A stretch of DNA of 64,000 bases, from NCBI RefSeq assembly GCF_001886955.1, contig NZ_CP016804.1:1364001-1428000 (forward strand), in the 5' to 3' direction. The stretch comes from Halodesulfurarchaeum formicicum (GTDB lineage Archaea; Halobacteriota; Halobacteria; Halobacteriales; Halobacteriaceae). The notes under the pieces were generated by a model. It had not been told where the DNA came from. It did not search any database and saw only the letters and a program-made list of their open reading frames with translations. How positions within the stretch are numbered: position 1 is the stretch's first letter; each line of letters starts with the position of its first letter. A program made the position numbers and the translations under genes. This document shows, piece by piece, positions 8,426-24,439 of the stretch.

Positions 8426-8877
8426 TGGCGATCGTCTCCTCGGAGACGCTGATCCTGTTCATCGCGGCCGTGCTCGTGGCGGGAAGCGTCGCGGGGGCGA
8501 TGACCGGCGGGGTGAGCCAGTTGAGCGAGGCACTCGAGGACCGAAGCCTCGATGTAAGCCAGGAGATCCGCACGGATATCGAGGTCATCAGCGATCCGGG
8601 GAGTGGCCAGATCTACGACGATGGGACCAACACCGTCACGCTCCTCCTCAAGAACACCGGCTCGAACACCCTCTCGACGGACCCGACCACGGTCGATACG
8701 GTGATCGACGGTCAGTACCGAACCGACCAATCGATCGAGATCCTCGATGCCACCCAGTGGGGGCCAGGGTCGGTCGCCCGTCTCACCGTCTCGAATGTCA
8801 CCCTGGGAACGGACACCGACCACCGTGTCGTGCTGAACGTCAATGGCAACCGCGAACGCTTTGACTTCCGAACATGA
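8425..8877 (+). CDS. arlG: archaellum stator protein ArlG
   Basis: The 150-residue protein has an N-terminal hydrophobic helix ([21 protein letters not shown]) and an extracytoplasmic beta domain with sequence in common with archaellins ([24 protein letters not shown]). ArlG forms filaments capped by ArlF and contributes to the stator. Start and stop overlap both neighbours by 1-4 nt (TAATG with arlF, ATGA with arlH), so translation is probably coupled. Confidence 0.9.
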
Positions 8878-9638
8878 GCCAACACCAACGCCTCTACTCG
8901 CTCGGCCTGGACGAACGCGATCGGCTCAACAACGAACTCGGCGGCGGGATTCCCCGTGGGAGCATCGTGCTCGTGGAGGGCGATTACGGGGCCGGCAAGA
9001 GCGCGTTGAGCCAGCGACTGGCCTACGGGCTCTGTGACCAAGATGTCTCCGTGACCCTGCTCTCGACTGAACTCACGGTCACGGGTTTCATCGACCAGAT
9101 GCACTCCCTTTCCTATGGGGTCGAGGAACACCTGCTCGACGAACGGCTCCTCTTTCTCCACGCGGACGTGGACACCGGTGGCAACGCCCTCAGAGGCGGG
9201 GCCAAAGACGACACGAACCGGAAAAAGCTGCTCAAGCGGTTGATGGAGGCCGAAGGGATGTGGGAGGCCGAAGTGGTGATCATCGACACCTTCGACGCCA
9301 TCCTCCGGAACGATCCGAACTTCGAAGCTCTGGTCCGCCAGAACGAGGAGCGACAGGCGGCCCTGGAGATCATCTCCTTCTTCCGGGATATCGTCACCCA
9401 GGGGAAGGTCATCGTCCTCACCGTCGACCCCTCGACGGTGGACGAGGAGGCGATCGGTCCCTTCCGATCGATCGCCGACGTGTTCCTGGAACTCCAGATG
9501 GCCGAGGTCGGCAACGACGTCCGGCGGTCGATCCAGGTGCGACGGTTTGCCGGGATGGGCGAACAGGTCGGCGACTCGATCGGGTTCTCGGTTCGGTCGG
9601 GGACCGGAATCGTCATCGAGAGCCGGAGCGTGGCTTGA
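8874..9638 (+). CDS. arlH: archaellum motor ATP-binding protein ArlH
   Basis: This KaiC/RecA-like protein has 254 residues, a Walker A motif [10 protein letters not shown] near residues 34-43 and a Walker B-like [11 protein letters not shown] near 135. ArlH binds ATP, forms a ring and regulates the motor ATPase ArlI inside the ArlCDE ring. It sits between arlG and arlI, with only one base before arlI. Length and motifs are typical. Confidence 0.95.
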
Positions 9639-9639
9639 A

Positions 9640-11463
9640 ATGGCGGATCACGGCTCTCGCGAACTGGGACACGAGTTGCGAGAAGCCGCGGGGCGACACC
9701 CCCATCTCCGGGAGTACCTTCAGCGGTTCAAGCAGTTCACCGGCGAGTTCCCGGAGTACATCGAGGAGCCGAGTTCCGAATGGGAGGCCGAGAAGCCAAA
9801 CGTCCTCTACAACGTCGGCGGCCCGATCTTCTGTCACATCTACGGTGACGTGGGAAAAGACACCAAGTATCACACCATCGAGCCGGAACTCTCCGGCCCC
9901 GAACAGGCCGTCTTCGACGACGTCCGGACTCGCATCCTCGAGAAGTCCGTCCAGCACCCCGCTCCCGAAGCCGAATCGGAGTACACCGACCGGATCGAGG
10001 AATTGCTGGAGAGCACGGTCCGAATCGGCGAGGCGGCCGGTGGTGGGCTCTTGACCCGGCTCAAGTCGGCCGCACCGGATCGGCTCACCCGGGACTCGCG
10101 CGGCCAGATCTCCCTCGACGTGGACGTCGAGGCGAACCTCCCGAGCGGGCTGGTCAGTAACGCGAAAGCCGCCGCCGGGCGGCCAGGACGGATCCTCCAG
10201 GAGACCGTCGAGAAGTCCCTCGGAATGGGTCGAATTCCGGTCTCGGAGACGACCTACGACACGATCCGCTATCGACTCAACCGCGACATCGTGGGGTTGG
10301 GACCGCTCGAACCCGTGATGCGGGACCCGTACAACGAGGACATCCACGTCATCGGGCCCCACCAGACCTACGTCGATCACGGAACCTACGGCCTGTTGCC
10401 GACGACCGTGGACTTCGGGGACCCGGCGGCGTTCGACAACTGGCTGCGGAACATCGGCGAGCGGATGGGCGATCCGGTCTCGGACTCGGACCCGATCGTG
10501 GACTCGACACTCCCGGATGGCTCCCGTATCAACATCATCTACTCCAGTGACGTGAGTCTCAAAGGCCCCTCGCTCACCATCCGTCAGGGCGACGAGGTCC
10601 CCCTCTCGGTCGGACAGATCACCAAGTGGGGCACGCTCTCCCCGGAACTGGCGGCCTATCTCTGGCTCTGTCTGGAGAACGAACAGACGGTCTTCGTGGT
10701 CGGGGAGACCGCCTCGGGCAAGACGACGACGCTGAACGCGATCACGGCCTTCATTCCCCGGGACTCGAAGATCTATACCGCCGAGGACACCGCGGAGGTC
10801 CTGCCACCACACGACACCTGGCAACAGCTCCTGACCCGGGAGGGCCAGGGCGAGAACAGCGCCGACGTGGACATGTTCGACCTGGTTGCGGCGGCGCTGC
10901 GGTCCCGCCCGGACTACATCATCGTGGGCGAGGTTCGTGGGGCCGAGGGTCGGATGGCCTTCCAGGCCGCCCAGACGGGCCACCCGGTCATGCTGACCTT
11001 CCACGCCAGCGACATCGTCTCGATGATCCAGCGGTTCACCGGGGAACCGATCAACGTCCCGGAGACGTTCATGGACAACGCCGACGTGGCCCTGTTCCAG
11101 AACCGGGTGAAACAGGGCGACGACGTGCTTCGCCGGGTCACCAGCGTCCAGGAGATCGAGGGCTACTCGAAGGAGATGGGCGGGGTCGTCACCCGCCAGG
11201 CCTTCTACTGGGACCCCGTCGAGGACGAGATCGTCTTCCAGGGGCGAAACAACTCGTATGTCCTCGAAGAACAGATCGCGACGCTTTTGGGATACGAGGA
11301 CACCCGCGAAATCTACGACGAGATGGACTTCCGCACCGAAATCATCGAACGCATCATCCAGGAGGACCTGATCGGCTATCACGACTTCAACGACGTCGTC
11401 GCCGCGTTCCAGCGGGACGGCGTCGAGGGCCTCCCCTTCACGATGGCCCGACGGGACCTCTGA
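9640..11463 (+). CDS. arlI: archaellum motor/assembly ATPase ArlI
   Basis: The 607-residue secretion-superfamily ATPase has an N-terminal accessory domain and a C-terminal RecA-like core: Walker A VVGETASGKTTT near residue 355, an Asp box region and Walker B DYIIVGEVRG near 427. ArlI powers both filament assembly and rotation. The start chosen is ATG 9640, 2 bp after the arlH stop codon begins; an in-frame ATG at 9547 would overlap arlH by 92 nt. A one-base gap separates it from arlJ. Confidence 0.95.
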   Translation: MADHGSRELGHELREAAGRHPHLREYLQRFKQFTGEFPEYIEEPSSEWEAEKPNVLYNVGGPIFCHIYGDVGKDTKYHTIEPELSGPEQAVFDDVRTRILEKSVQHPAPEAESEYTDRIEELLESTVRIGEAAGGGLLTRLKSAAPDRLTRDSRGQISLDVDVEANLPSGLVSNAKAAAGRPGRILQETVEKSLGMGRIPVSETTYDTIRYRLNRDIVGLGPLEPVMRDPYNEDIHVIGPHQTYVDHGTYGLLPTTVDFGDPAAFDNWLRNIGERMGDPVSDSDPIVDSTLPDGSRINIIYSSDVSLKGPSLTIRQGDEVPLSVGQITKWGTLSPELAAYLWLCLENEQTVFVVGETASGKTTTLNAITAFIPRDSKIYTAEDTAEVLPPHDTWQQLLTREGQGENSADVDMFDLVAAALRSRPDYIIVGEVRGAEGRMAFQAAQTGHPVMLTFHASDIVSMIQRFTGEPINVPETFMDNADVALFQNRVKQGDDVLRRVTSVQEIEGYSKEMGGVVTRQAFYWDPVEDEIVFQGRNNSYVLEEQIATLLGYEDTREIYDEMDFRTEIIERIIQEDLIGYHDFNDVVAAFQRDGVEGLPFTMARRDL

Positions 11464-11464
11464 G

Positions 11465-13189
11465 ATGGCGACCGAATCCGAGGAGGGCGTTTCGTTCGAG
11501 CTCTCCACCCTGCTCGTGTCCATCAGGGACGCCTACCGCCAGATGGAGATCCCCGTCTCCCGCTATGTCGGGGGTATTCTGCTCCCCGGGGTCCTCTTTT
11601 TCCTGGTCACGATCGTGGCTGCAATCGGTTTGGACATGCCCCTTTTCGTCCGGCTCCCGATGCCGGCACTGGGGCTTTTGATCGTCGTGGCGGCCTTTAT
11701 TTACCCCAAACTCCGACTGGACCAGCGTCGAAAGCGGATGGAAGAAGTCTTTCATCTGTACGTGACCCACATGACGGTGCTCTCGACGACGAACATCGAT
11801 CGGGTGGAAGTCTTCCGGCGGATCGCCGCCACGGACGACTACGGCCCGCTCTCCGAGGAGACCCGCCGGATCGTTCAACTTGTCGACACCTGGAATCAGA
11901 GTCTAGACGACGCCTGTCGGATGCGGGCGAAGAAAGTCCCCAGCGACGCGGTCTCGGATTTCTTCGATCGGCTCTCCTACACGATCAACGCCGGGGAGAG
12001 CCTCTCGAACTACCTGGTGAGCGAGCAGTCGGCGATCATCCAGAACTACACGACCATCTACGAGGGGCAACTGGAGAACCTGGAAGTGATGAAAGATCTG
12101 TACCTCTCGATGATCCTCTCGGTCACCTTTGCGCTGGTCTTTGGCACCGTGCTGCCGATCATCTCCGGGACCGATCCCACGATCACGGTCACGGCCGTCG
12201 TCGTGATGTACTCGTTCATCCAACTGGGCTTTCTCTACGCGATCTACACCGTCTCCCCGACAGACCCGGTCTGGTACGTGCCCGAGCAGCACACGACAGC
12301 CACGGAACGACGTATGCAACGGGCGGTCCTGGTGGGTGGGTCGCTGTCCATCCTTGCGATCGCTGCCACGCTCGTGGTGATGCTCGGGGCGACCGGAATC
12401 GACCCAGACACCGTGCCGCTGCCGATCTACGCCGCCTTCCCGACGACACCGCTGCTGATACCGGGGCTGGTCGCCCGCCAGGAGGAAGGAGACATCAAAG
12501 ATCGAGACAGCGAGTACGTGAGTTTCATTCGCGCGCTCGGGTCGAGCGAAACCGCCCAGCAGACCACCACGACGGCGGTTTTGGAGGGGCTTCGCGAGAA
12601 GGACTTCGGTCCCTTGACCGAGAACGTTACCGACCTCTACACGCGCCTGAAGATGCGGCTCTCGCCCGAGGAAGCCTGGCGGTTTTTCACCGCCGACGCC
12701 CACTCCTATCTCATCCAGAAGTTCAGCGAGATGTACCTCATCGGGCGACAGATGGGTGGCGATCCCAAACATCTCGGAGAGCTCATTAGCGAGAACATGA
12801 ACGAGGTGCTCCAGTTGAGAGAGCGCCGAAGCCAGTCGACGATGACCCTGATCGGCGTCCTCTATGGGATCTCCGCCGCCGCCACGTTTGCCTTCTTCAT
12901 CGGGCTGGGGATCGTCGAACAGCTTTCGGGCCTGTCGGCCGGGCTCGCCTCGACGGGGAGTTTCGACTTCAACTCGCTCATCCACACGGAAGTGTACAAC
13001 GTCGGTCTGATCGAATTCCTGCTCACCGTGACCGTCCTGATCAACGCCCTCATCTCCGCACTCATGGTCCGGGTCGTCGACGGGGGCCACACGGTGAACA
13101 GCTACCTGCACTTCGTCGCGCTCACCTGGCTGGGAGCCATCATCGGGTCCGGGACGCTGGAACTCGTTGGCACCCTGTTGGGGATCTGA
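11465..13189 (+). CDS. arlJ: archaellum membrane platform protein ArlJ
   Basis: The 574-residue polytopic membrane protein carries two GspF/T2SF-type cytoplasmic domains separated by hydrophobic segments, with three membrane segments at the C-terminus. ArlJ anchors ArlI in the membrane. It closes the arl operon; the following gene has its own TATA box. Confidence 0.93.
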   Translation: MATESEEGVSFELSTLLVSIRDAYRQMEIPVSRYVGGILLPGVLFFLVTIVAAIGLDMPLFVRLPMPALGLLIVVAAFIYPKLRLDQRRKRMEEVFHLYVTHMTVLSTTNIDRVEVFRRIAATDDYGPLSEETRRIVQLVDTWNQSLDDACRMRAKKVPSDAVSDFFDRLSYTINAGESLSNYLVSEQSAIIQNYTTIYEGQLENLEVMKDLYLSMILSVTFALVFGTVLPIISGTDPTITVTAVVVMYSFIQLGFLYAIYTVSPTDPVWYVPEQHTTATERRMQRAVLVGGSLSILAIAATLVVMLGATGIDPDTVPLPIYAAFPTTPLLIPGLVARQEEGDIKDRDSEYVSFIRALGSSETAQQTTTTAVLEGLREKDFGPLTENVTDLYTRLKMRLSPEEAWRFFTADAHSYLIQKFSEMYLIGRQMGGDPKHLGELISENMNEVLQLRERRSQSTMTLIGVLYGISAAATFAFFIGLGIVEQLSGLSAGLASTGSFDFNSLIHTEVYNVGLIEFLLTVTVLINALISALMVRVVDGGHTVNSYLHFVALTWLGAIIGSGTLELVGTLLGI

Positions 13190-13209
13190 TCGCAGCAGGC
13201 ACACTTATG

Positions 13210-13216
13210 TATAAAA
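13210..13216 (+). promoter_or_regulatory. TATA box of the MinD-like gene
   Basis: TATAAAA is centred 24 bp before ATG 13237. The more upstream in-frame ATG at 13207 lies within this promoter and is therefore unlikely to be the start. Confidence 0.65.
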
Positions 13217-13236
13217 CACAGAAAACACTGGACAGC

Positions 13237-14154
13237 ATGCCGGACGCGGACGCTGATGGCTACGCCCTGGCGATCGCCTCCGGGAAGGGTGGCGTCGGCA
13301 AGACGACGACCGCGGTGAATCTCGGTGCGGCCCTGGCCGGAGACTACCGTGTCGCGGTCGTCGACGTCGACCTCGGGATGGCGAATCTGGGCGCGATGGT
13401 CGGACTCACCCAGCCCGAGGCGACGGTTCATGACGTCCTCGCCGAGCGAGCACCGCTCTCAGCCGCACTGCACGAGGCCCGCGGGCTCACGGTCGTTCCT
13501 GGGGCGACCGACCTGCGCGAGTACGCCGACGCCGGCACGGAGTCACTCGAAGCGGTTATCGCCCAACTCAAATCGAGGTTCGACGTGGTCGTCCTCGACG
13601 CCGGAGCCGGGTTGAGCGACGACGTCGCCGCCGCACTCGACGTGGCAGATGGCGTCCTTTTAGTCACGACGGCAGAGCTACACGCCCTGACAGACGCGTC
13701 CAAGACCGGCGAACTCGTCGAGCGGCTGGAAGTGCCTGTCGTCGGAGCTGTCCTCACTGGGACTGGCTCCGGGTCCTTCGACGACGTGGAGGGACTCGCG
13801 ACGGCCCTCGGAACCACCGGCTCGGTGACGGTCAGCGTCCCGGCCGACAGGGAAGTTCAAAAGAGCATTCGAACGGGCGTTCCGGTCGTCTTCGAGAACG
13901 AATCCACGCCGGCAGCCGTCGCCTACAGACGGCTCGCCGCATCGCTCGCGGAGACACTCGAATTCGGCGAGGACTCACCGGCGGATCCGGATGGATTCGA
14001 GTGGGTCGATCCGGAAAGCGGGGCGGAGATCGACGAGGACCCCGGTCCGGTCATGGAGGTCCCCCTCGAGACGCTCATCGACGAGGCCGGACTCGAAAAC
14101 GAAGCGGATCGAACCCAGCTTCTCGGTCGGGTTCGGTCCTGGTTCGAGCGATGA
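13237..14154 (+). CDS. MinD/ParA-type ATPase of the archaellum locus
   Basis: The 305-residue protein has a deviant Walker A (SGKGGVGKTTT, residues 15-25), a Walker A' region VVDVDLGMANLG and the MinD-type VVLDAGAG. After the ATPase fold comes an acidic linker from about residue 245 and a C-terminal LLGRVRSWFER that looks like an amphipathic membrane-targeting helix. In Haloferax volcanii, MinD4 promotes polar placement of archaella and chemosensory arrays; location next to arlJ suggests the same role. It has its own leaderless promoter. Orthology to MinD4 is inferred, not shown. Confidence 0.82.
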   Translation: MPDADADGYALAIASGKGGVGKTTTAVNLGAALAGDYRVAVVDVDLGMANLGAMVGLTQPEATVHDVLAERAPLSAALHEARGLTVVPGATDLREYADAGTESLEAVIAQLKSRFDVVVLDAGAGLSDDVAAALDVADGVLLVTTAELHALTDASKTGELVERLEVPVVGAVLTGTGSGSFDDVEGLATALGTTGSVTVSVPADREVQKSIRTGVPVVFENESTPAAVAYRRLAASLAETLEFGEDSPADPDGFEWVDPESGAEIDEDPGPVMEVPLETLIDEAGLENEADRTQLLGRVRSWFER

Positions 14155-14870: not shown

Positions 14871-14980
14871 GGGGGTGGCAAAAGAGTACCGGCGTTATTC
14901 CGTGGGAAAATGTGCTGACAGTTACCAGTTAACGGGCCAAGCCCCAATCCTTATTCGGTTCCGGTATGAGCAGATTGATA

Positions 14981-15382
14981 ATGAGTAACGAAGATACAAG
15001 TGTCCTCGAATTTTCGCTGGGAGACGACCGATATTGCATCGACATCACACAGGTCGAAGAAATCGTCGACGCCGACGAGGAGATCACGGCCGTTCCGAAC
15101 GCGGCTCCGGAAGTCGAAGGCGTCGTGGATCTCCGCGGGGAGACGACCACAATCATCGATCCCACGGTCGCCCTGGATGTAGACACGACAACCAGCGGCC
15201 AGCGGATCGTCGTCCTGGCAGACGAAGACGGGACCGGCCTGCTCATCGACGACGTTCACCAGGTGTTGTCGGTCACGTCGGCAGCCGTCGACGAGTCGAC
15301 CAGTTCGGCGACCACACGCGGGGTCATCAGAGTGGATGATCGGTTCGTGGTCTGGGTCGAGCCGTCGGCGCTACTCGGGTAA
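14981..15382 (+). CDS. cheW: chemotaxis coupling protein CheW (first copy)
   Basis: The 133-residue CheW-fold protein (VLEFSLGDDRYCIDITQVEEIVDADEEITAVPNAAPEVEGVVDLRGE in outline) links receptors to CheA. The start at 14981 is preferred over ATG 14966 because TTATT near 14951-14955 lies about 27 bp upstream. The gene is followed 9 bp later by the chemoreceptor, which it presumably couples. Confidence 0.92.
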   Translation: MSNEDTSVLEFSLGDDRYCIDITQVEEIVDADEEITAVPNAAPEVEGVVDLRGETTTIIDPTVALDVDTTTSGQRIVVLADEDGTGLLIDDVHQVLSVTSAAVDESTSSATTRGVIRVDDRFVVWVEPSALLG

Positions 15383-15391
15383 AAGACACTC

Positions 15392-17431
15392 ATGAACGCG
15401 ACATCAATGACAGACACCGACCGGGAGGAGTCCAGGGACGACCGACGCGAAGCAATCGGCGAGATCCAGTCCGTACTTCGGGCCATGGCCGAGGGGGACT
15501 TCACGGCCAGACCGGCCGTCTCGCCGGACGACCCTGAACTCGCCGAAGCGGTATCGCTGCTGGATACGGTCGCCGAATCGCTCGAACACACCTTCGCGAC
15601 CGTCGACCGCTTCGCCGGGGATGTCACCGACACGAGCCAGGAAGCGACCCGCGGCATCGAGGACGTCCGCCAGGAGAGCCAGGTCGTCCGCCAATCGACC
15701 GAGGCGATCAGCGAGGCGACCGACGAGCAGGAGGACAACGTCGAGGCCGTCTCCGCGGAGATGGCAAACGTTTCGGCGACCATCGAGGAAGTCACGGCCA
15801 CTGCCGACGACGTGGCCGATCAGTCCGAACGGATGGCCGAACGGGGAGAGAAAGGCGGGAAAGCGGCGGAACGAGCCGTTGCGGAACTCGATCAGATCGA
15901 AACAGGCGTCTCCGGGGCTCGCGAGACTGCAGAGCATCTCACCGACCAGACCGCCGAAATAGACGAGGTCGTCGAGTTCATCGCTGACATCGCCGATCAG
16001 ACCAACCTGCTCGCGTTGAACGCCTCCATCGAGGCTGCCCGGGCGGGCGAGGCCGGGGACGGGTTTGCCGTCGTCGCCGAGGAGATCAAGTCCCTCGCGG
16101 AGGAGACCCAGGAGGCGACCGACGAGATCGGGAGCCTGCTGACCGACGTGCACAGTCACGCCGAGGACACCGCGGCCGAACTCGACGCGACGGCCGAGAA
16201 CGTCTCCAGCGGAATCGAGACTGTCGAGGGGGCCCTCCAATCACTGGAGCAAATCGCCGACCAGGCCACCGAGACCAACGTCGGGGTTCAGGAGATCAAC
16301 GACGCGACCGCCGAGCAGGCAGAAGCGGCCCAGCAGGTCTCACAGATGGCCGACGAACTGTATGACCTGGCCCAGCAGACGACCGAGGAGACAGACAGCG
16401 TCGTCCAATCGATGGAGTCCCAGGAGGGCGAGTTCGCCGCGATCGGTCACGACGTGAAGACACTCTCCGCACAGGCCACCGTCCTCGAGGAGCAACTCGG
16501 GGAGTACGACTACCGAAACGTCCAGGGTGTCACCACCCTCGACTCGGAGACTCGCGAGAGTGTCGGAGCAGCCGAATCCACCCCGATCGTCATCGGCTCC
16601 AAGCCCTTCACCGCGAACAAGATCCTCGCCTATCTCGCCTACGAACTTCTCGAAGCCGAAACCGACCTCTCACCGGTCGATCAGGTGGGGACCGGAGTCA
16701 CCGAGGAGAACTTCCGACAGCTACGGAACGGCGATCTGGACCTCTACTGGGAGTACACCGGTACGATCTACGGGGAGTTCCTCGACCGAACCGAGTCCAT
16801 CACGGACACTCACAAACTCTACGAGGCGGCCAAGCAGGGAATCGAGTCGACATACAAGCTAACCTACGGCGAACGAGCCACCCATAACAACACCTACGGC
16901 ATCCTCGCTCCCCGGGTCTGGTGTGAGGAGACGGGTGTCCACTCCCTGGACGACCTGGCGACCTACGCTAACGAGCACGACGGCGAAGTCACCGCCGTGG
17001 TCGGGCCGGACTTCCGGGACCGGGACGACGGCTGGCGCGGCCTGCTTGAGACCCACGGTTTCGAGCCCGACGTCCAGGATGCAGTCTGGGAGCGAACGGC
17101 AACGATCGACGCCTCGGAGGAGCGCTACGAGATGATCGGCCGGTCGACGGTCGATGTGACCATGGGGCTGACCGTCGACGCCCTCATCGACATCCACGAC
17201 CTGGAGGAACTCGACGATCGGCGACAGTTCTTCCCGATCTACAACCCGGCACCGCTGGTTCGAAACGACCTGGTCCAGGCCCACCCCGAGGTCATGGACG
17301 TTCTCAACCGGATCGGCCCCACCTTCGAGGACGTCTCGGAGATCCGTCGGCTGGTCAGACAGGTCGACATCGGGAAGCGCCACCCCCGCGTGGTGGCCCA
17401 CGAGTACCTCGAAACGGCAGGGCTGCTCTGA
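15392..17431 (+). CDS. cytoplasmic chemoreceptor fused to a ProX/OpuAC-type substrate-binding domain
   Basis: The 679-residue protein has no signal peptide or membrane segment. Residues about 15-70 look HAMP-like ([11 protein letters not shown]). Residues about 70-370 are a methyl-accepting coiled coil with the conserved tip [19 protein letters not shown] and [15 protein letters not shown]. From about residue 396 a betaine/choline-type periplasmic binding domain follows ([42 protein letters not shown], and a C-terminal lobe). Such binding proteins normally act outside the cell. Here the fusion should sit in the cytosol and sense an intracellular solute such as glycine betaine; ligand is inference. 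Adjacent cheW supports a chemotaxis role. Confidence 0.88.
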
Positions 17432-18217
17432 TCAGACCTCGATCGTGGACCCGACACCCACGTACTCGTAGGCCTCGGGGAACCGCTCGGCGAAGATCCG
17501 CTCGCCCACGTGACCGGTGCAGTGAGAGGGCGCGAACAGATCGAGTCGGTTGCCGATCCAGTCGGCGATTTCCTGGATCTCCGCGGGGCTCGATCCGACC
17601 AGGTGTGTCCCGCCGATGACAGCCCGAACTTGCTCGCCCGTCACTGCTTCTGCGTGTTCGATCGTGTTTCGCAATCCCGCGTGACAGCAGCCACAGACGA
17701 GGGCAATTCCGTTCGCCGTCTCCACCGCCAGTGACTGGTCGTCCGCGATCTGATCGGCCTCTCGGGAGCCGTCCGAACGAACCGTCGTCCCGAGCGGATT
17801 GTCGGGATGGGGTCGAGGGATTTCCCCGAGAGCGTGAATTCCGTCGGCGACTTCGATCGGCCCGTCGTGGGTGTGGATTTCGACGTCGGCCGCCAGTCGT
17901 TCCCGCCGATACGGGAGCCCGATGTACGTCCCGTCCTGGAACTTCGGATCGAACGCATCGGGATGGGCGTACACGGTTTCGGCGCCGTCGAGAAACGCGG
18001 GCAAGCCGCCAGTGTGATCGTAGTGCCCGTGGCTCAATACGATCTGCTCGTAGCTCGGCTCCAGTCCGAGCCGGCGGGCGTTCTCGACGGCTTCGCCGGT
18101 CTGCCCCGTGTCGAAGAGGACATCCCCAACGACCGCTGCAAAGCCGTGTTCGGCCCGCAAGCCCATCGGTCGGGTCCCGGCAACGCGGTCGTCCATCACG
18201 ATTTGAATCGTGGTCAT
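17432..18217 (-). CDS. MBL-fold metallohydrolase (COG1237-like)
   Basis: The 261-residue protein shows the metal-binding LSHGHYDHTGG motif and later His residues (GCCHAG, GGTHLVG, APSHCTGH). These fit the COG1237 subfamily, related to enzymes acting on methanopterin-precursor-like pterin phosphates; substrate here is unknown. ATG 18217 lies 8 bp after the stop codon of the coiled-coil gene upstream, suggesting one transcript. An upstream in-frame start at 18259 would overlap that gene. It lies oppositely oriented within the chemotaxis island. Confidence 0.8.
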   Translation of the reverse strand: MTTIQIVMDDRVAGTRPMGLRAEHGFAAVVGDVLFDTGQTGEAVENARRLGLEPSYEQIVLSHGHYDHTGGLPAFLDGAETVYAHPDAFDPKFQDGTYIGLPYRRERLAADVEIHTHDGPIEVADGIHALGEIPRPHPDNPLGTTVRSDGSREADQIADDQSLAVETANGIALVCGCCHAGLRNTIEHAEAVTGEQVRAVIGGTHLVGSSPAEIQEIADWIGNRLDLFAPSHCTGHVGERIFAERFPEAYEYVGVGSTIEV

Positions 18218-18225
18218 CGTGTCAG

Positions 18226-19704
18226 TCACCCGAAGACGTCCGAAAGCTGGTCGCGCCACTCCTGGACTGCATCGAGTTCCGATTCGAGGGTCTCCACCTG
18301 CTCGGACAGGGCTTCGAGTTCGAGTTGCGTGGACTCCACCTCATCGACCCGTTCGTCGAGGGCCTCGAGGTCCCCACGCAACCGTTCGATCTGCTCGGCC
18401 ACGCCGGCGATGGCCTCGACAGTGTCCGTGAGGTTCTCAAGGTGCTCGTTCATCGTGTCCCGGTCAGTCTCGGCCTCATCGAGGCGCTCCTCCACGCGCG
18501 CCAAGTCCGCGCCCAGGGAGTCGATTTCGGCCTCCAGGTCCGAGAGTACCTGCTGGGCGCTGCCGTTGTCGTCGATGAACTCCGCCAGCGCGTCCGAATA
18601 CGCCTCCAGGTCCGAGAGCCGGGTCTGGAGGTGTTCGATCCGAACGCGATCGCTCGGCGACTCGGTCCGGACCGCCTCGCGAATCGTCGCGAGCGCCTCC
18701 TGGTCGACGGTTCCGGCCTCGATCTCTTCGGCGAGTGCAGTGGCAATCGACTCGGACTCGGTCTCGGGCTTCATTGGTGTTTCGGGGGTCGGATCAGTGG
18801 CTTCGTCCTCGGCGGCGTCGGCAGGCACTGGTTCGGCGTCGGCGACCGCCGACGGTGTCGAATCCTCGGAGGCGGACGCTGCGACGCCCGCCTCTGAGGC
18901 CGACGCTTCGATCGGTTCATCTGCCGTCTCGGCCGTGGGGTCACCGGCGTCCGTCTGGGCCGCCGTTTCCGTCTCCGGATCGGTCTCATCGGCCATAGTA
19001 TCGGAATCAGTCTCATCGGCCATAGTATCGGACTCAGTCTCGTCGGCCATAGTATCAGGCTCGGACTGGTCTGTCTCCGCCCACATCTCCGCCGGGGCGG
19101 TCTCGGAATCCGTGACGGTCTCCTCGACCAGTCCAGCAACAGTCCTGCGGGCCGCCTCGTCGGCGTCGGCTGGTTCCGTGCTGGGGTCGGCTCCGCCTTC
19201 CTCGCCAGGTTCGTCGCTGGCTGTCTCCGCGGCCAGCCCAGGGACACTCTCCCGGTCCCCGCGAGCCAGCTCCCGGACCAGTTCGGAGCTCTCGGCGGGA
19301 ACAACGGTGTCTGTCTCCTCCCCTTCGGATTCCGTCTCGGGGACCGCCGCCTGAGTGCCCGCGTTCACCTCGACGGTCGGTTTTTCGAGGAAGAGTGTCG
19401 GCTCGGTGTCGGCAGCCATTCTGATACCATAGAGTGTGGTGAAACTCGCGTCCGATTCGACGGTGCGTTCGAAGCGGACTTCACCGTTCCCGGTCGCAGT
19501 CCAGTCCTCGCTTCCGTACGCCGGATGGAACCCGATCTGCTCGATTCCAAAGTCCTCGGGGATCGTATCCGTGATCGTCAACTCCACCGGCTCCGCCCGG
19601 GTCGACTCGACCGCGAAGGTCACGGCCGGGACCGGGAACTCCTCGGCGTCGAAGGACTTGGTCACCGTGACGCCGTCGCTCACGACGACTGTCTCCTCGT
19701 TCAC
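18226..19704 (-). CDS. beta-domain and coiled-coil protein of unknown function
   Basis: The 492-residue protein has three parts. An N-terminal domain to about residue 110 is beta-rich (TVTKSFDAEEFPVPAVTF, EPVELTITDTIPEDF), resembling immunoglobulin-like or DUF11-type repeats. A long acidic low-complexity region (about 120-320) contains three tandem MADETxxDT repeats. The C-terminal 170 residues are a coiled coil (LSDLEAEIDSLGADLARVEERLDEAETDRD). No signal peptide is visible. The start GTG 19704 is preceded by GAGGTGG; a GTG at 19755 sits next to the TATA-like TTTTAAGT. It lies among che genes and precedes the MBL gene. I do not recognise it. Confidence 0.72.
   Translation of the reverse strand: MNEETVVVSDGVTVTKSFDAEEFPVPAVTFAVESTRAEPVELTITDTIPEDFGIEQIGFHPAYGSEDWTATGNGEVRFERTVESDASFTTLYGIRMAADTEPTLFLEKPTVEVNAGTQAAVPETESEGEETDTVVPAESSELVRELARGDRESVPGLAAETASDEPGEEGGADPSTEPADADEAARRTVAGLVEETVTDSETAPAEMWAETDQSEPDTMADETESDTMADETDSDTMADETDPETETAAQTDAGDPTAETADEPIEASASEAGVAASASEDSTPSAVADAEPVPADAAEDEATDPTPETPMKPETESESIATALAEEIEAGTVDQEALATIREAVRTESPSDRVRIEHLQTRLSDLEAYSDALAEFIDDNGSAQQVLSDLEAEIDSLGADLARVEERLDEAETDRDTMNEHLENLTDTVEAIAGVAEQIERLRGDLEALDERVDEVESTQLELEALSEQVETLESELDAVQEWRDQLSDVFG
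18970..19050 (-). repeat. three tandem 27-bp repeats inside the coiled-coil gene
   Basis: In-frame units at 19050-19024, 19023-18997 and 18996-18970 encode MADETESDT, MADETDSDT and MADETDPET. They lie in the acidic low-complexity linker. Confidence 0.93.
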
Positions 19705-19837
19705 GGGGACCACCTCACGTTGTGTTCCATGCCCTGATTTGGGAGGATAATCCACTTAAAACGCCCGGCACCCCTCTCGGTTTTGAGAACGGCGTAGCCC
19801 GGGTGGATTTATGACCCTGAGTGTCAAACGTCGTTGT

Positions 19838-20449: not shown

Positions 20450-20515
20450 CTTTCGATTTTGATAGCTGTCGCGAAACAATTATACTCCGCTCTGCCGGTG
20501 GTTGGGACAGCGACG

Positions 20516-21070
20516 ATGACCGCCACCGATTCCGATACCGCGATGGCCCGCGAGAAGCGCGAGGAGACTGCCGCGGAACCAGCCACGGAGGTGGTCGAGT
20601 TCATGCTCGGAGCCGAACGCTGTGCGATCGACATCGACGCAGTCGACAGTATCGTCGAGCCAAAACAGATCACCAGAGTGCCGCGGGCCCCCGAGGCGGT
20701 CGAGGGCGTGATGGACCTTCGCGGGGAAACTACGGCTGTGGTGGACCCGACGCTGTTCCTCGCGATCGAAAACGACGGGACGGCCGCGAACATTTTGGTT
20801 CTGGATCGCGACGGCGACAAGCAGAAGATCGGGATCCGGGTCGGGTCCGTCGAAGAGGTCACCAGCTATCCACCCGCCCAGATCGACCGGAACGGTGATC
20901 TGGCGGGCATCCAGACCAGCGCGATCGAGGCCGACCTCGTCCAGGGCGTGCTGCGAAAGCACCTCGGAGAGGGAGACGAGGATGGGGTCCCTGAGGACAT
21001 CTCGCTGGTGCTCTGGCTGGACATCGCCCGGCTGATCGATGCAATCTCGACTGACGGACCAGGCGTCTAG
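20516..21070 (+). CDS. cheW: chemotaxis coupling protein CheW (second copy)
   Basis: The CheW domain spans about residues 30-184 (VEFMLGAERCAIDIDAVDSIVEPKQITRVPRAPEAVEGVMDLRGE in outline), with a polar N-terminal extension. It shares the VExVxDLRGETT core with the first CheW but has a longer C-terminus. AATTATAC at about 20478-20485 lies 34 bp before ATG 20516. A second in-frame ATG at 20546 is possible; ATG 20459 lies upstream of the promoter and is unlikely. Two CheWs suggest separate receptor sets sharing one CheA. Confidence 0.88.
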   Translation: MTATDSDTAMAREKREETAAEPATEVVEFMLGAERCAIDIDAVDSIVEPKQITRVPRAPEAVEGVMDLRGETTAVVDPTLFLAIENDGTAANILVLDRDGDKQKIGIRVGSVEEVTSYPPAQIDRNGDLAGIQTSAIEADLVQGVLRKHLGEGDEDGVPEDISLVLWLDIARLIDAISTDGPGV

Positions 21071-21135: not shown

Positions 21136-21498
21136 ATGGCACAGGACGTGCTTCTCGTTGATGACTCGGAGTTCATGCGGAATCTCCTTCGCGAGATCCT
21201 GGAGGGCGAACTGGAGATCGTCGGCGAGGCGGAGAACGGCGTCGAAGCCGTCGAGATGTACAAGGAGCACCACCCGGACCTGGTGATGATGGACATCGTG
21301 ATGCCGATCCGCGACGGGATCGAGGCGACGGCGGCTATCAAGGACGCCGACGCCGGCGCCCACGTCATCATGTGCACGTCCATCGGACAGGAGGAAAAGA
21401 TGAAGAAGGCGGTCAAGGCGGGCGCGGACGGCTACATCACCAAGCCGTTCCAGAAGCCCAGCGTGATGGACGCCATCGAAGACGTGCTCGCGGCATGA
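21136..21498 (+). CDS. cheY: chemotaxis response regulator CheY
   Basis: A single receiver domain of 120 residues with acidic pocket D9/D10, phosphoacceptor D53 (MMDIVMP), T81 and K103 (ITKPF). Phospho-CheY binds the archaellum switch through CheF in archaea. The stop overlaps the cheB start (ATGA), so the two are probably translationally coupled. Confidence 0.96.
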   Translation: MAQDVLLVDDSEFMRNLLREILEGELEIVGEAENGVEAVEMYKEHHPDLVMMDIVMPIRDGIEATAAIKDADAGAHVIMCTSIGQEEKMKKAVKAGADGYITKPFQKPSVMDAIEDVLAA

Positions 21499-22532
21499 CA
21501 CGCGTCCTGGTCGTCGACGACTCGCATTTCATGCGGACGGTCATCACCGACATCCTCGAGGACGCCGGGCTGACCGTCGTCGCCCAGGCCGCAAACGGTC
21601 GCGAGGCGGTCGAACTCGTCGCCGACCACGACCCCGATGTCGTCACGATGGACGTCGAGATGCCCGAGATGAACGGCATCGAAGCGGTCGAGGCGATCAT
21701 GGACCACGACCCGGTCCCGATCATGATGCTCTCGGCGCTGACGACCGACGGGGCCGACGCCACGCTCGAGGCCATGGAGAAAGGCGCCGTCGACTTCTTC
21801 GCGAAGCCGAGTGGGACCATCTCGACTGACCTCTCCGCCCACGCCGAAGCGCTGGTTCGCACCGTCGAATCGGTCGCCCAATCCGATCCGACCGCTCAAA
21901 CGATCTCGACGGGGCAGCGATCGACGGCCGATCGCGAGGGGACCTACGTCGACCATCCGACCCTCGTGATCGGAGCCTCGACCGGTGGCCCGAACGTCGT
22001 GGAGTCGATTCTCGCCGACCTCCCGCGTTCTGCAGACTTCCGGGTCCTCGTGGTTCAGCACATGCCCGATCAGTTCACCGGGCGATTCGCGAAGCGACTG
22101 GACGGGCGGTCGGCCTACGATGTCCGGGAAGCGAGCGACGGGGACCGGATCGGGGGTGGCGAGGCACTGATCGCGAAAGGCGATTACCACATGGTCGTGA
22201 GCGGGTACAGTAGCGGTCGGCTCCGGGTCCGGCTCGAACAGTCCGCGCCCGTTCACTCCGTGCGGCCGGCCATCGACGTGACCATGGAATCCGTCGCCGA
22301 GACGATCGACGACCCAGTCACCGCCGTCGTCCTGACGGGAATGGGCTCGGACGGAGCGGCGGGGGTCGAGGCGATCGACGCTATCGGCGGCCAGGTGCTA
22401 GCACAGGACGAGGAAACGAGCGCGGTCTTCGGCATTCCCGGCCGAGCCATCGAGACCGGTTGTGTCGACGGGGTGCACCCGGCGGACGAACTCGTCGACG
22501 CCGTTCTCGACACGATACGGGACCGAACCTGA
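21495..22532 (+). CDS. cheB: chemoreceptor methylesterase/deamidase CheB
   Basis: The 345-residue protein joins a receiver domain (D8, D9, phosphoacceptor D53) by a linker to the methylesterase domain. The catalytic triad is visible: S162 in GASTGG, H189 in VVQHMP and D286 in GMGSDGAAG. It removes methyl groups from receptors during adaptation. ATG 21495 overlaps cheY and the stop overlaps cheA by one base. Confidence 0.96.
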   Translation: MTRVLVVDDSHFMRTVITDILEDAGLTVVAQAANGREAVELVADHDPDVVTMDVEMPEMNGIEAVEAIMDHDPVPIMMLSALTTDGADATLEAMEKGAVDFFAKPSGTISTDLSAHAEALVRTVESVAQSDPTAQTISTGQRSTADREGTYVDHPTLVIGASTGGPNVVESILADLPRSADFRVLVVQHMPDQFTGRFAKRLDGRSAYDVREASDGDRIGGGEALIAKGDYHMVVSGYSSGRLRVRLEQSAPVHSVRPAIDVTMESVAETIDDPVTAVVLTGMGSDGAAGVEAIDAIGGQVLAQDEETSAVFGIPGRAIETGCVDGVHPADELVDAVLDTIRDRT

Positions 22533-24439
22533 TGGAAGACTATCTCGAAGAATTCGTCCGCGAGGGCGAAGACCACGTCACCGAGCTGAACAACGCGCTG
22601 CTCACCCTCGAGAGCGACCCCGAGGACGACGGGGCTATGGAGCGGATCTTCCGGACGGCCCACACCCTGAAGGGCAACTTCGGAGCGATGGGCTTCGAGG
22701 ACGCTTCGGACCTCGCCCACGCCGTCGAGGACCTCCTCGACGCGATGCGCCAGGGCGAGATCGCGGTCACCGCCGACCGGATGGACCACATCTTCGCCGG
22801 CGTCGACGAGATCGAGGCCTGTCTCGACGAGATCGAGGCCGACGGCGAGGTTGCCCGAGACGTCAGGCCGACGATCACGGACCTCAGAGCGGTCCTTGAT
22901 GGAGCTGACGAGCCGGCCACCGAGACGGCTGCCCAGGAATCGACCACCGAGGACGTCGCCTTCGATCCAGCGACACTGGACGCCGATGGCGAGCGCGTGG
23001 TTCAGGCGACAGTGGAGATGGCCGACTCGGAGATGCCAGGGGTCGACGCGATGTTCGTCCTGGAGGACATCCAGGAGACCTTCGACGTGCTCGGGGCCGT
23101 CCCCGAGATCGACGCGATCGAGGACGGCGAGTACGATACGGACTTCACGCTGGCACTTGCAACAGACGCCGGCGATGTCGCCTCGGAAATCGCGGAAAAC
23201 GGCGACGTCACGAACGTTACCGTCCAGGAACTCGACACCGAGAGCGAGGGTAGCGAGACGGAGACGGCAGCGGACAATGCTGGGGAGTCGGGCACGGACT
23301 CGGTCGGCGAGATCCAATCGGTCCGCGTGAACGTCGATCAGCTCGACGAACTCCACGGCCTGGTCGAACAGCTAGTGACCACCCGGATCAAACTCCGGCG
23401 GAGCGTCGGCGAGAACGACCGCCGGACCGAGGAGGAACTCGACGACCTGGACAAGATCACCTCGAACCTCCAGGACACCGTGATGGACATGCGGCTGGTC
23501 CCGATGAAGAAGATCGTCGGGAAGTTTCCCCGATTGGTCCGGGATCTCGCCCGCGAGGAGGACAAACAGGTCGAGTTCACGATCGAGGGTGACGACGTCG
23601 AACTCGATCGCACGATCCTCACCGAGATCAGCGACCCGCTGATGCACATTCTGCGGAACGCAGTCGACCACGGGATCGAATCGCCTGAGAAACGCGAAGC
23701 CGCCGGCAAGGACCCGACCGGTTCGATCACGCTCCGGGCCGAGCGCGAACGGGACCGGGTGAAGATTCAGGTCATCGACGACGGGCAGGGCGTCGATCAC
23801 GACGCGATTCGAACGAAAGCCGTCGAGAAGGGCATTCTCGACAGTGCAGAGGCGGAGGACCTGACGGAAGACGAGGTGGCCGAACTGATCTTCCACTCCG
23901 GGTTCTCGACCACCGAGGAGGTAACAGACGTCAGCGGGCGCGGAGTCGGGATGGACGTGGTCAACGACACCGTCACGCGACTCGATGGCTCGGTGTCGGT
24001 CACGAGCGAACCGGGCGAGGGGACGACTGTGACCCTCACGCTGCCAGTGACCGTCGCCATCGTGAAGGTGCTGTTCGTGGAGTCCGGCGGGGAGAAATAC
24101 GGGATCCCGATCAAGACTATCGACGAGATCAGCCGGATGCGCCCGCTCAAACAGGTCGACGGCGAGGAAGTGGTCACCTACGACGACACGGTCTATCCAC
24201 TCGTGCGCCTGGGCGACGCCCTCGACGTGCCCGGTGAAACCCGGAACGGCGACGGCATGCTTGTCAAGATCCGGGACACGGAACGCCAGGTAGCGCTGCA
24301 CTGTGACGCCGTCCAGGGACAGGAGGAAGTCGTCGTCAAGCCATTCGAGGGCATCTTGAGCGGCATTCCGGGCCTCTCCGGGGCGGCGGTCCTCGGGGAG
24401 GGCGACGTGGTGACCATCCTCGACGTGGCGACGCTCTGA
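22532..24439 (+). CDS. cheA: chemotaxis histidine kinase CheA
   Basis: The 635-residue protein has the standard order: P1 with phospho-acceptor H44 (RTAHTLKGN), a P2 region (about 160-240), P3 dimerisation (VRVNVDQLDELHGLVEQL), P4 ATPase with N, G1 and G2 boxes (HILRNAVDHGIE, DDGQGVD, GRGVGMDVV) and P5 CheW-like domain at the C-terminus. It phosphorylates CheY and CheB. Start ATG 22532 uses the last base of the cheB stop codon. Confidence 0.96.
   Translation: MEDYLEEFVREGEDHVTELNNALLTLESDPEDDGAMERIFRTAHTLKGNFGAMGFEDASDLAHAVEDLLDAMRQGEIAVTADRMDHIFAGVDEIEACLDEIEADGEVARDVRPTITDLRAVLDGADEPATETAAQESTTEDVAFDPATLDADGERVVQATVEMADSEMPGVDAMFVLEDIQETFDVLGAVPEIDAIEDGEYDTDFTLALATDAGDVASEIAENGDVTNVTVQELDTESEGSETETAADNAGESGTDSVGEIQSVRVNVDQLDELHGLVEQLVTTRIKLRRSVGENDRRTEEELDDLDKITSNLQDTVMDMRLVPMKKIVGKFPRLVRDLAREEDKQVEFTIEGDDVELDRTILTEISDPLMHILRNAVDHGIESPEKREAAGKDPTGSITLRAERERDRVKIQVIDDGQGVDHDAIRTKAVEKGILDSAEAEDLTEDEVAELIFHSGFSTTEEVTDVSGRGVGMDVVNDTVTRLDGSVSVTSEPGEGTTVTLTLPVTVAIVKVLFVESGGEKYGIPIKTIDEISRMRPLKQVDGEEVVTYDDTVYPLVRLGDALDVPGETRNGDGMLVKIRDTERQVALHCDAVQGQEEVVVKPFEGILSGIPGLSGAAVLGEGDVVTILDVATL

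Follow-up and report, generated by a model that had tools for sequence, protein, structure and literature searches.

A gene at positions 15392–17431 (+) of the window, that is, of the whole 64,000-nucleotide stretch analyzed here (1364001–1428000 of a 2.086-Mb single-contig genome), encodes a soluble chemoreceptor of 679 residues with a fused ProX/EgtU-type solute-binding domain (PF04069), as judged from Pfam, hydropathy, and an AlphaFold model. The fusion is real, conserved, and rare, and on balance we take it to be a cytosolic receptor for a betaine-type zwitterion, which would read the imported pool of this compound.

Architecture of the Receptor

The initial annotation had read one 679-residue frame as an MCP joined to a ProX/OpuAC domain, and the domain search and structure prediction that it proposed as a check recovered both the PF00015-type and the PF04069 parts, the latter with an SBP fold. 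Pfam places MCPsignal at residues 158–322 (E 6.9e-41) and OpuAC at the C-terminus, residues 398–674 (E 9.9e-46), both well past the cut-off. An N-terminal segment at about residues 22–65 (15455–15586, +) is HAMP-like, with a weak match (E 5e-4 for the isolated segment, below the curated cut-off). The signaling hairpin (15533–16498, +), formed by helices 48–217 and 219–369, has the conserved MCP tip, which identifies the protein as a chemoreceptor. A flexible linker of about residues 370–397 (16499–16582, +) leads to the OpuAC/ProX-type binding domain (16583–17428, +).

In the full-length AlphaFold2 model, a long hairpin of helices is joined by a disordered linker (residues 370–394, pLDDT <50) to an SBP fold that starts at residue 398; the model is of moderate confidence (pLDDT 74, pTM 0.45) and does not give the relative placement of hairpin and SBP. 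The isolated OpuAC domain was modeled with a pLDDT of 94.1. This model matches F-III structures in Foldseek (EgtUC, AfProX, and OpuBC/OpuCC; E about 1e-29 to 1e-23), and the domain has both the sequence family of F-III proteins and the two-lobed type II fold. An alignment of all fusions shows that the linker varies in sequence and is similar in length.

Distribution and Origin of the Fusion

The survey of domain order suggested by the initial annotation shows that five genomes in all encode the fusion, with no further OpuAC–MCP fusion seen among the OpuAC matches examined from approximately 800 distinct haloarchaeal and related genomes (a class sample, two whole families, and a phylum sample). 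Besides the window genome (G000), the receptor is found in a second genome of the genus (G001; 96% identity overall), in a different haloarchaeal family and genus (G317; 63%), in another haloarchaeal genus of a third family (G372; 47% overall), and in a Halodesulfurarchaeum MAG, where it is split into two contig-end halves. The MCP motif was sought in those long frames of both the haloarchaeal and the phylum sample that had an OpuAC match, and only four fusions were positive; it should be noted that the phylum-wide survey rests on the best matches listed, and low-scoring fusions outside the Halobacteria could be missed. A common architecture can be ruled out for the genomes sampled, given only four complete fusions and the split MAG copy.

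The receptors of the window genome and G001 differ at 13, 10, and 120 first, second, and third codon positions, a pattern of strong purifying selection in both domains. Recurrence in five genomes and this codon-level selection rule out an artefact of frame or assembly. Phylogenetic analysis places the OpuAC halves of the five fusions in a single clade (100/100 support) on a long and separate branch, with one state change on the tree. The MCP half of the window receptor is likewise closest to those of the other fusions (61% in G317, 53% in G372), as against 39–42% identity to the other receptors of its own genome and at most about 41% to plasmid receptors among the best matches listed. No plasmid record was found to match the full receptor over at least 80%, and viral contigs matched the MCP part only. 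A single ancient fusion, followed by patchy retention or transfer, would explain this distribution best.

Two observations were made beside the more distant copies. A truncated second OpuAC fragment adjoins the G372 fusion gene (L042:12152–12908, −) and looks like a decayed duplicate, and a divergent neighbor of the G317 fusion (L041:10828–12099, +) encodes a Tat-lipobox-type protein with no NCBIfam match.

Cytoplasmic Location

The receptor had been described as free of signal peptide and transmembrane segments, and this is borne out: no transmembrane helix was found, its highest 19-residue Kyte–Doolittle mean being 1.03 (the maximum for the genome's single membrane MCP is 2.39), and a search for signal peptides, Tat signals, and lipoboxes found none in this or the other complete fusions. 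The reading frame is closed by a stop three codons 5′ of the ATG, so that an earlier start or a signal peptide hidden upstream is ruled out. Among free haloarchaeal homologues the N-terminus was inspected in 38, and every one of these has a lipobox-like Cys and a signal of the Tat type; none of the complete fusions does, so loss of export accompanies the fusion. The earlier proposal of a ligand domain facing the cytosol is thereby well supported. The receptor is in these respects a cytoplasmic chemoreceptor of the Car kind, and it has neither the export signal and lipoprotein anchor nor the partner permease of an ABC transporter SBP, its gene neighbors being CheW and a metallo-beta-lactamase-fold (MBL) gene.

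Genomic Context

The receptor gene sits within an arl/che cluster. Upstream are the archaellum motor genes for KaiC-like ArlH, ArlI (T2SSE ATPase), and ArlJ (T2SSF) (8874–13189, +; Pfam), and 9 bp before the receptor lies a CheW coupling protein gene (14966–15382, +; Pfam CheW E 1.1e-23), which probably shares its transcript. Downstream follow a second CheW, of the main che operon (20459–21070, +; E 8.9e-24), and CheY, CheB, and CheA (21136–24439, +; Pfam Response_reg, CheB_methylest, and Hpt/H-kinase_dim/HATPase/CheW), and after CheA there are frames read by eye as CheC-like, CheD, CheR, and CheF-like. Both G001 (97% identical) and the MAG retain the CheW–receptor synteny; no CheW adjoins the fusion gene in G317 and G372, so the pairing is not constant among the fusions.

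Three further genes of the cluster are worth recording. A MinD/ParA-like ATPase (13207–14154, +) is possibly involved in the polar placement of arrays or archaella. The receptor gene is followed by the MBL gene (17432–18259, −), a hydrolase that is absent at that site in the MAG (L038), and by a gene for a very acidic protein of 509 residues without a Pfam match (18226–19755, −), which is conserved in the MAG (L038:1094–2836).

The window belongs to a salt-loving and probably sulfur-respiring archaeon, Halodesulfurarchaeum being known as a sulfur-respiring genus. The window genome is 99.97% complete, and the receptor is its sole PF04069 protein. Four of its five MCPs are soluble: the OpuAC fusion, one each of the PAS and protoglobin types, and a short receptor with no recognized sensor; the fifth has membrane helices and no recognized extracellular domain. 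CheW genes adjoin three of the soluble-receptor loci (contig C1, 419051–421567, 439535–440805, and 1379002–1381431, the last being 14966–17431 of the window). Separately, a PAS-type soluble MCP (L001:769–2148) has a cysteine-rich stretch, VKCMNQANSSVCGTEDCTKK, in its PAS region, and is possibly a metal or redox sensor. The genome also encodes three BCCT carriers, which could import betaines; glycine betaine uptake in haloarchaea is mostly by sodium symporter and rarely of the ABC type (PMC4230888). A cell without an external betaine-binding protein could sense betaine internally after import, and the lone OpuAC protein, the three carriers, and the mostly soluble receptors form a context that fits steering by an internal pool.

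The Ligand Pocket

Pocket positions were assigned by alignment to EgtUC, with residue roles and equivalences taken from the EgtU study (PMC9732360), and are K404, Y455, T458, N500, Y502, R544, L593, and Y617 in the receptor. In EgtU, K242, T296, and R379 bind the ligand carboxylate, and the cage residues include F293, N339, Y341, Y419, and Y443 (PMC9732360). The carboxylate triad is present in all five fusions as K404/T458/R544, N500 corresponds to N339, and Y455, Y502, and Y617 to the cage residues F293, Y341, and Y443. The equivalent of the cage residue Y419 is Leu593: Leu in 5/5 fusions, Phe or Tyr in the transporter relatives. The aromatic pocket on which the initial annotation had staked its reading therefore stands for the most part, with the triad, Asn500, and three of the four cage aromatics kept and one wall replaced by Leu593, so a normal ProX-like affinity for betaine cannot be assumed. 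The replacement could mean weak binding or a different ligand.

At the positions of the Lys and the Thr, some relatives carry Met/Ala and Gly. The fusions are of the Lys/Thr type, which would favor a carboxylate zwitterion over choline. Among solved sequences the closest to the OpuAC domain are the EgtUC ergothioneine-binding domains, followed by AfProX, and for this reason "betaine" here means a betaine-type zwitterion. On the thioimidazole side, EgtU E375 and G244 are replaced by D540 and F406, and the domain does not have the residues of an ergothioneine receptor at these positions. Between the window receptor and the most distant fusion, in G372 (46% over the domain), 7/8 pocket positions are identical, and the eighth changes from Tyr to Trp.

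Proposed Function and Alternative Explanations

We propose that the C-terminal domain binds a compound with a quaternary amine and a carboxylate in the cytosol, with glycine betaine as the first candidate. The ligand would enter through the BCCT carriers, which require no external binding protein. Closure of the two-lobed domain on its ligand would alter how the MCP hairpin packs at its base, or the packing of the HAMP segment, and this would shift CheA activity through the CheW encoded directly upstream, such that the cell would steer toward sites where its imported osmolyte pool fills. The linker of ~25 residues is predicted to be disordered, and mechanical coupling is thus not obvious. Leu593 may lower the affinity to match millimolar internal pools. 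Ligand identity, affinity, coupling through the linker, use of the adjacent CheW, the attractant response, and the behavior are all what we infer from these data. A fuller scenario can be put forward tentatively, as a possibility that we rate clearly below the core proposal: an SBP would have been moved into the cytosol by MCP fusion, with export lost and its pocket detuned by Leu593 for a millimolar osmolyte, giving an "internal osmotaxis" by the fill state of imported betaine in a cell where none of the five receptors has a recognizable extracellular sensor domain.

In the main rival reading, the architecture is unchanged but its altered cage (Leu593, Asp540, Phe406, and Val436) would bind some other quaternary or cationic metabolite of the cytosol, for instance ergothioneine, choline, carnitine, or a similar compound, perhaps one that reports redox or nutrient state. 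We consider this somewhat unlikely, yet it draws on real features: the EgtUC domains rank before AfProX, the fusions have specific changes at or near ligand-contact positions, and they form a long separate branch. But EgtU, ProX, and OpuC all match the predicted fold well, and the order of the matches is not enough to decide between ligands. Ergothioneine in particular is spoken against by D540 and F406, and by the search for its synthesis gene EgtD (PF10017), which gave no match in the genus's three genomes; a retained carboxylate triad, for its part, is not what one would expect of a sensor for choline alone.

The OpuAC domain might instead have given up ligand binding and become a protein-interaction or docking module, for carriers or polar landmarks, with sensing left to the HAMP or N-terminal part. 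The flexible tether and the cage residue lost in all fusions would suit such a module, which we nevertheless find distinctly improbable, since the pocket is conserved as far as G372, where the one changed position is still aromatic, and the domain is under strong purifying selection. Least credible of all, and in our view very improbable, is that the binding domain acts outside the cell in the manner of CosB or BasB, through non-classical export or a secreted fragment. Its inspected close free relatives do all resemble exported lipoproteins; against this, the Tat signal, lipobox, and transmembrane segment are absent from the window protein and the other complete fusions, the stop codon precedes the start by three codons, and the MCP part has to face CheA and CheW in the cytosol.

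Should the ligand of the cytosolic receptor proposed here be a betaine, the protein would amount to a naturally occurring osmolyte gauge of the cytosol that is connected to motility. External binding proteins would then prove recyclable as internal receptors, and taxis would be tied to uptake and not to outside concentration. A soluble receptor of defined fold would also provide a membrane-free system for studying ligand control of MCP signaling.

Comparison with Known Systems

The F-III proteins EgtUC, A. fulgidus ProX, and OpuBC/OpuCC have the fold in common with the window domain (TM-scores within the family reach about 0.9), as well as most pocket residues, but they are extracytosolic parts of ABC systems with four aromatic walls, whereas the window domain is cytosolic, fused to an MCP, and has Leu593 for one wall. 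TlpD-type CZB receptors likewise combine a soluble MCP hairpin with a C-terminal sensor, which in their case is a small zinc-binding domain, unlike the 280-residue solute-binding fold found here. A further soluble haloarchaeal SBP–MCP fusion was observed on the Natronomonas pharaonis plasmid PL131 (NC_007427.1; L068:1585–4116; WP_232503995), where a Peripla_BP_6/5–MCPsignal protein, annotated only as a urea ABC transporter substrate-binding protein, represents an independent internalized fusion; the idea of a soluble SBP–MCP is thus not unique to the window. It differs from the window fusion in its Peripla_BP_6/5 family, its N-terminal SBP, and the degraded signal-like segment in the open frame upstream of it.

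There is general precedent for receptors in the cytoplasm, for osmolyte taxis, and for cytosolic signaling proteins with a binding-protein fold (PMC3579733; PMC9602780). Internal receptors are thus an established class; for the soluble OpuAC–MCP pairing itself, we found no paper or other description in the open-access literature. Car (Htr11) of Halobacterium salinarum, a cytoplasmic arginine receptor, is like the window receptor a soluble haloarchaeal MCP, and it senses an internal metabolite; the cytoplasmic Htr11, Htr13, and Htr15 of that species co-purify preferentially with CheW2 (PMC3579733). This preference offers a parallel for the pairing of a soluble receptor with a CheW of its own. 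The ligand of Car is arginine, unlike the candidate betaine-type ligand here, and to our knowledge Car has no OpuAC domain.

Among the closest known counterparts are CosT/CosB and BasT/BasB of H. salinarum, which serve osmolyte and amino-acid taxis; as proposed here, an OpuAC/ProX-type protein informs a haloarchaeal MCP on compatible solutes (PMC3579733, Table 2; PMC4230888). In CosT/CosB, binding is left to a separate external protein, and the receptor CosT has two transmembrane helices, whereas the window receptor is one soluble chain without any, in a genome with no other PF04069 protein that could be a separate external lipoprotein. The internal model and that of CosT/CosB are separated by a simple prediction: under the former, without uptake there would be no taxis.
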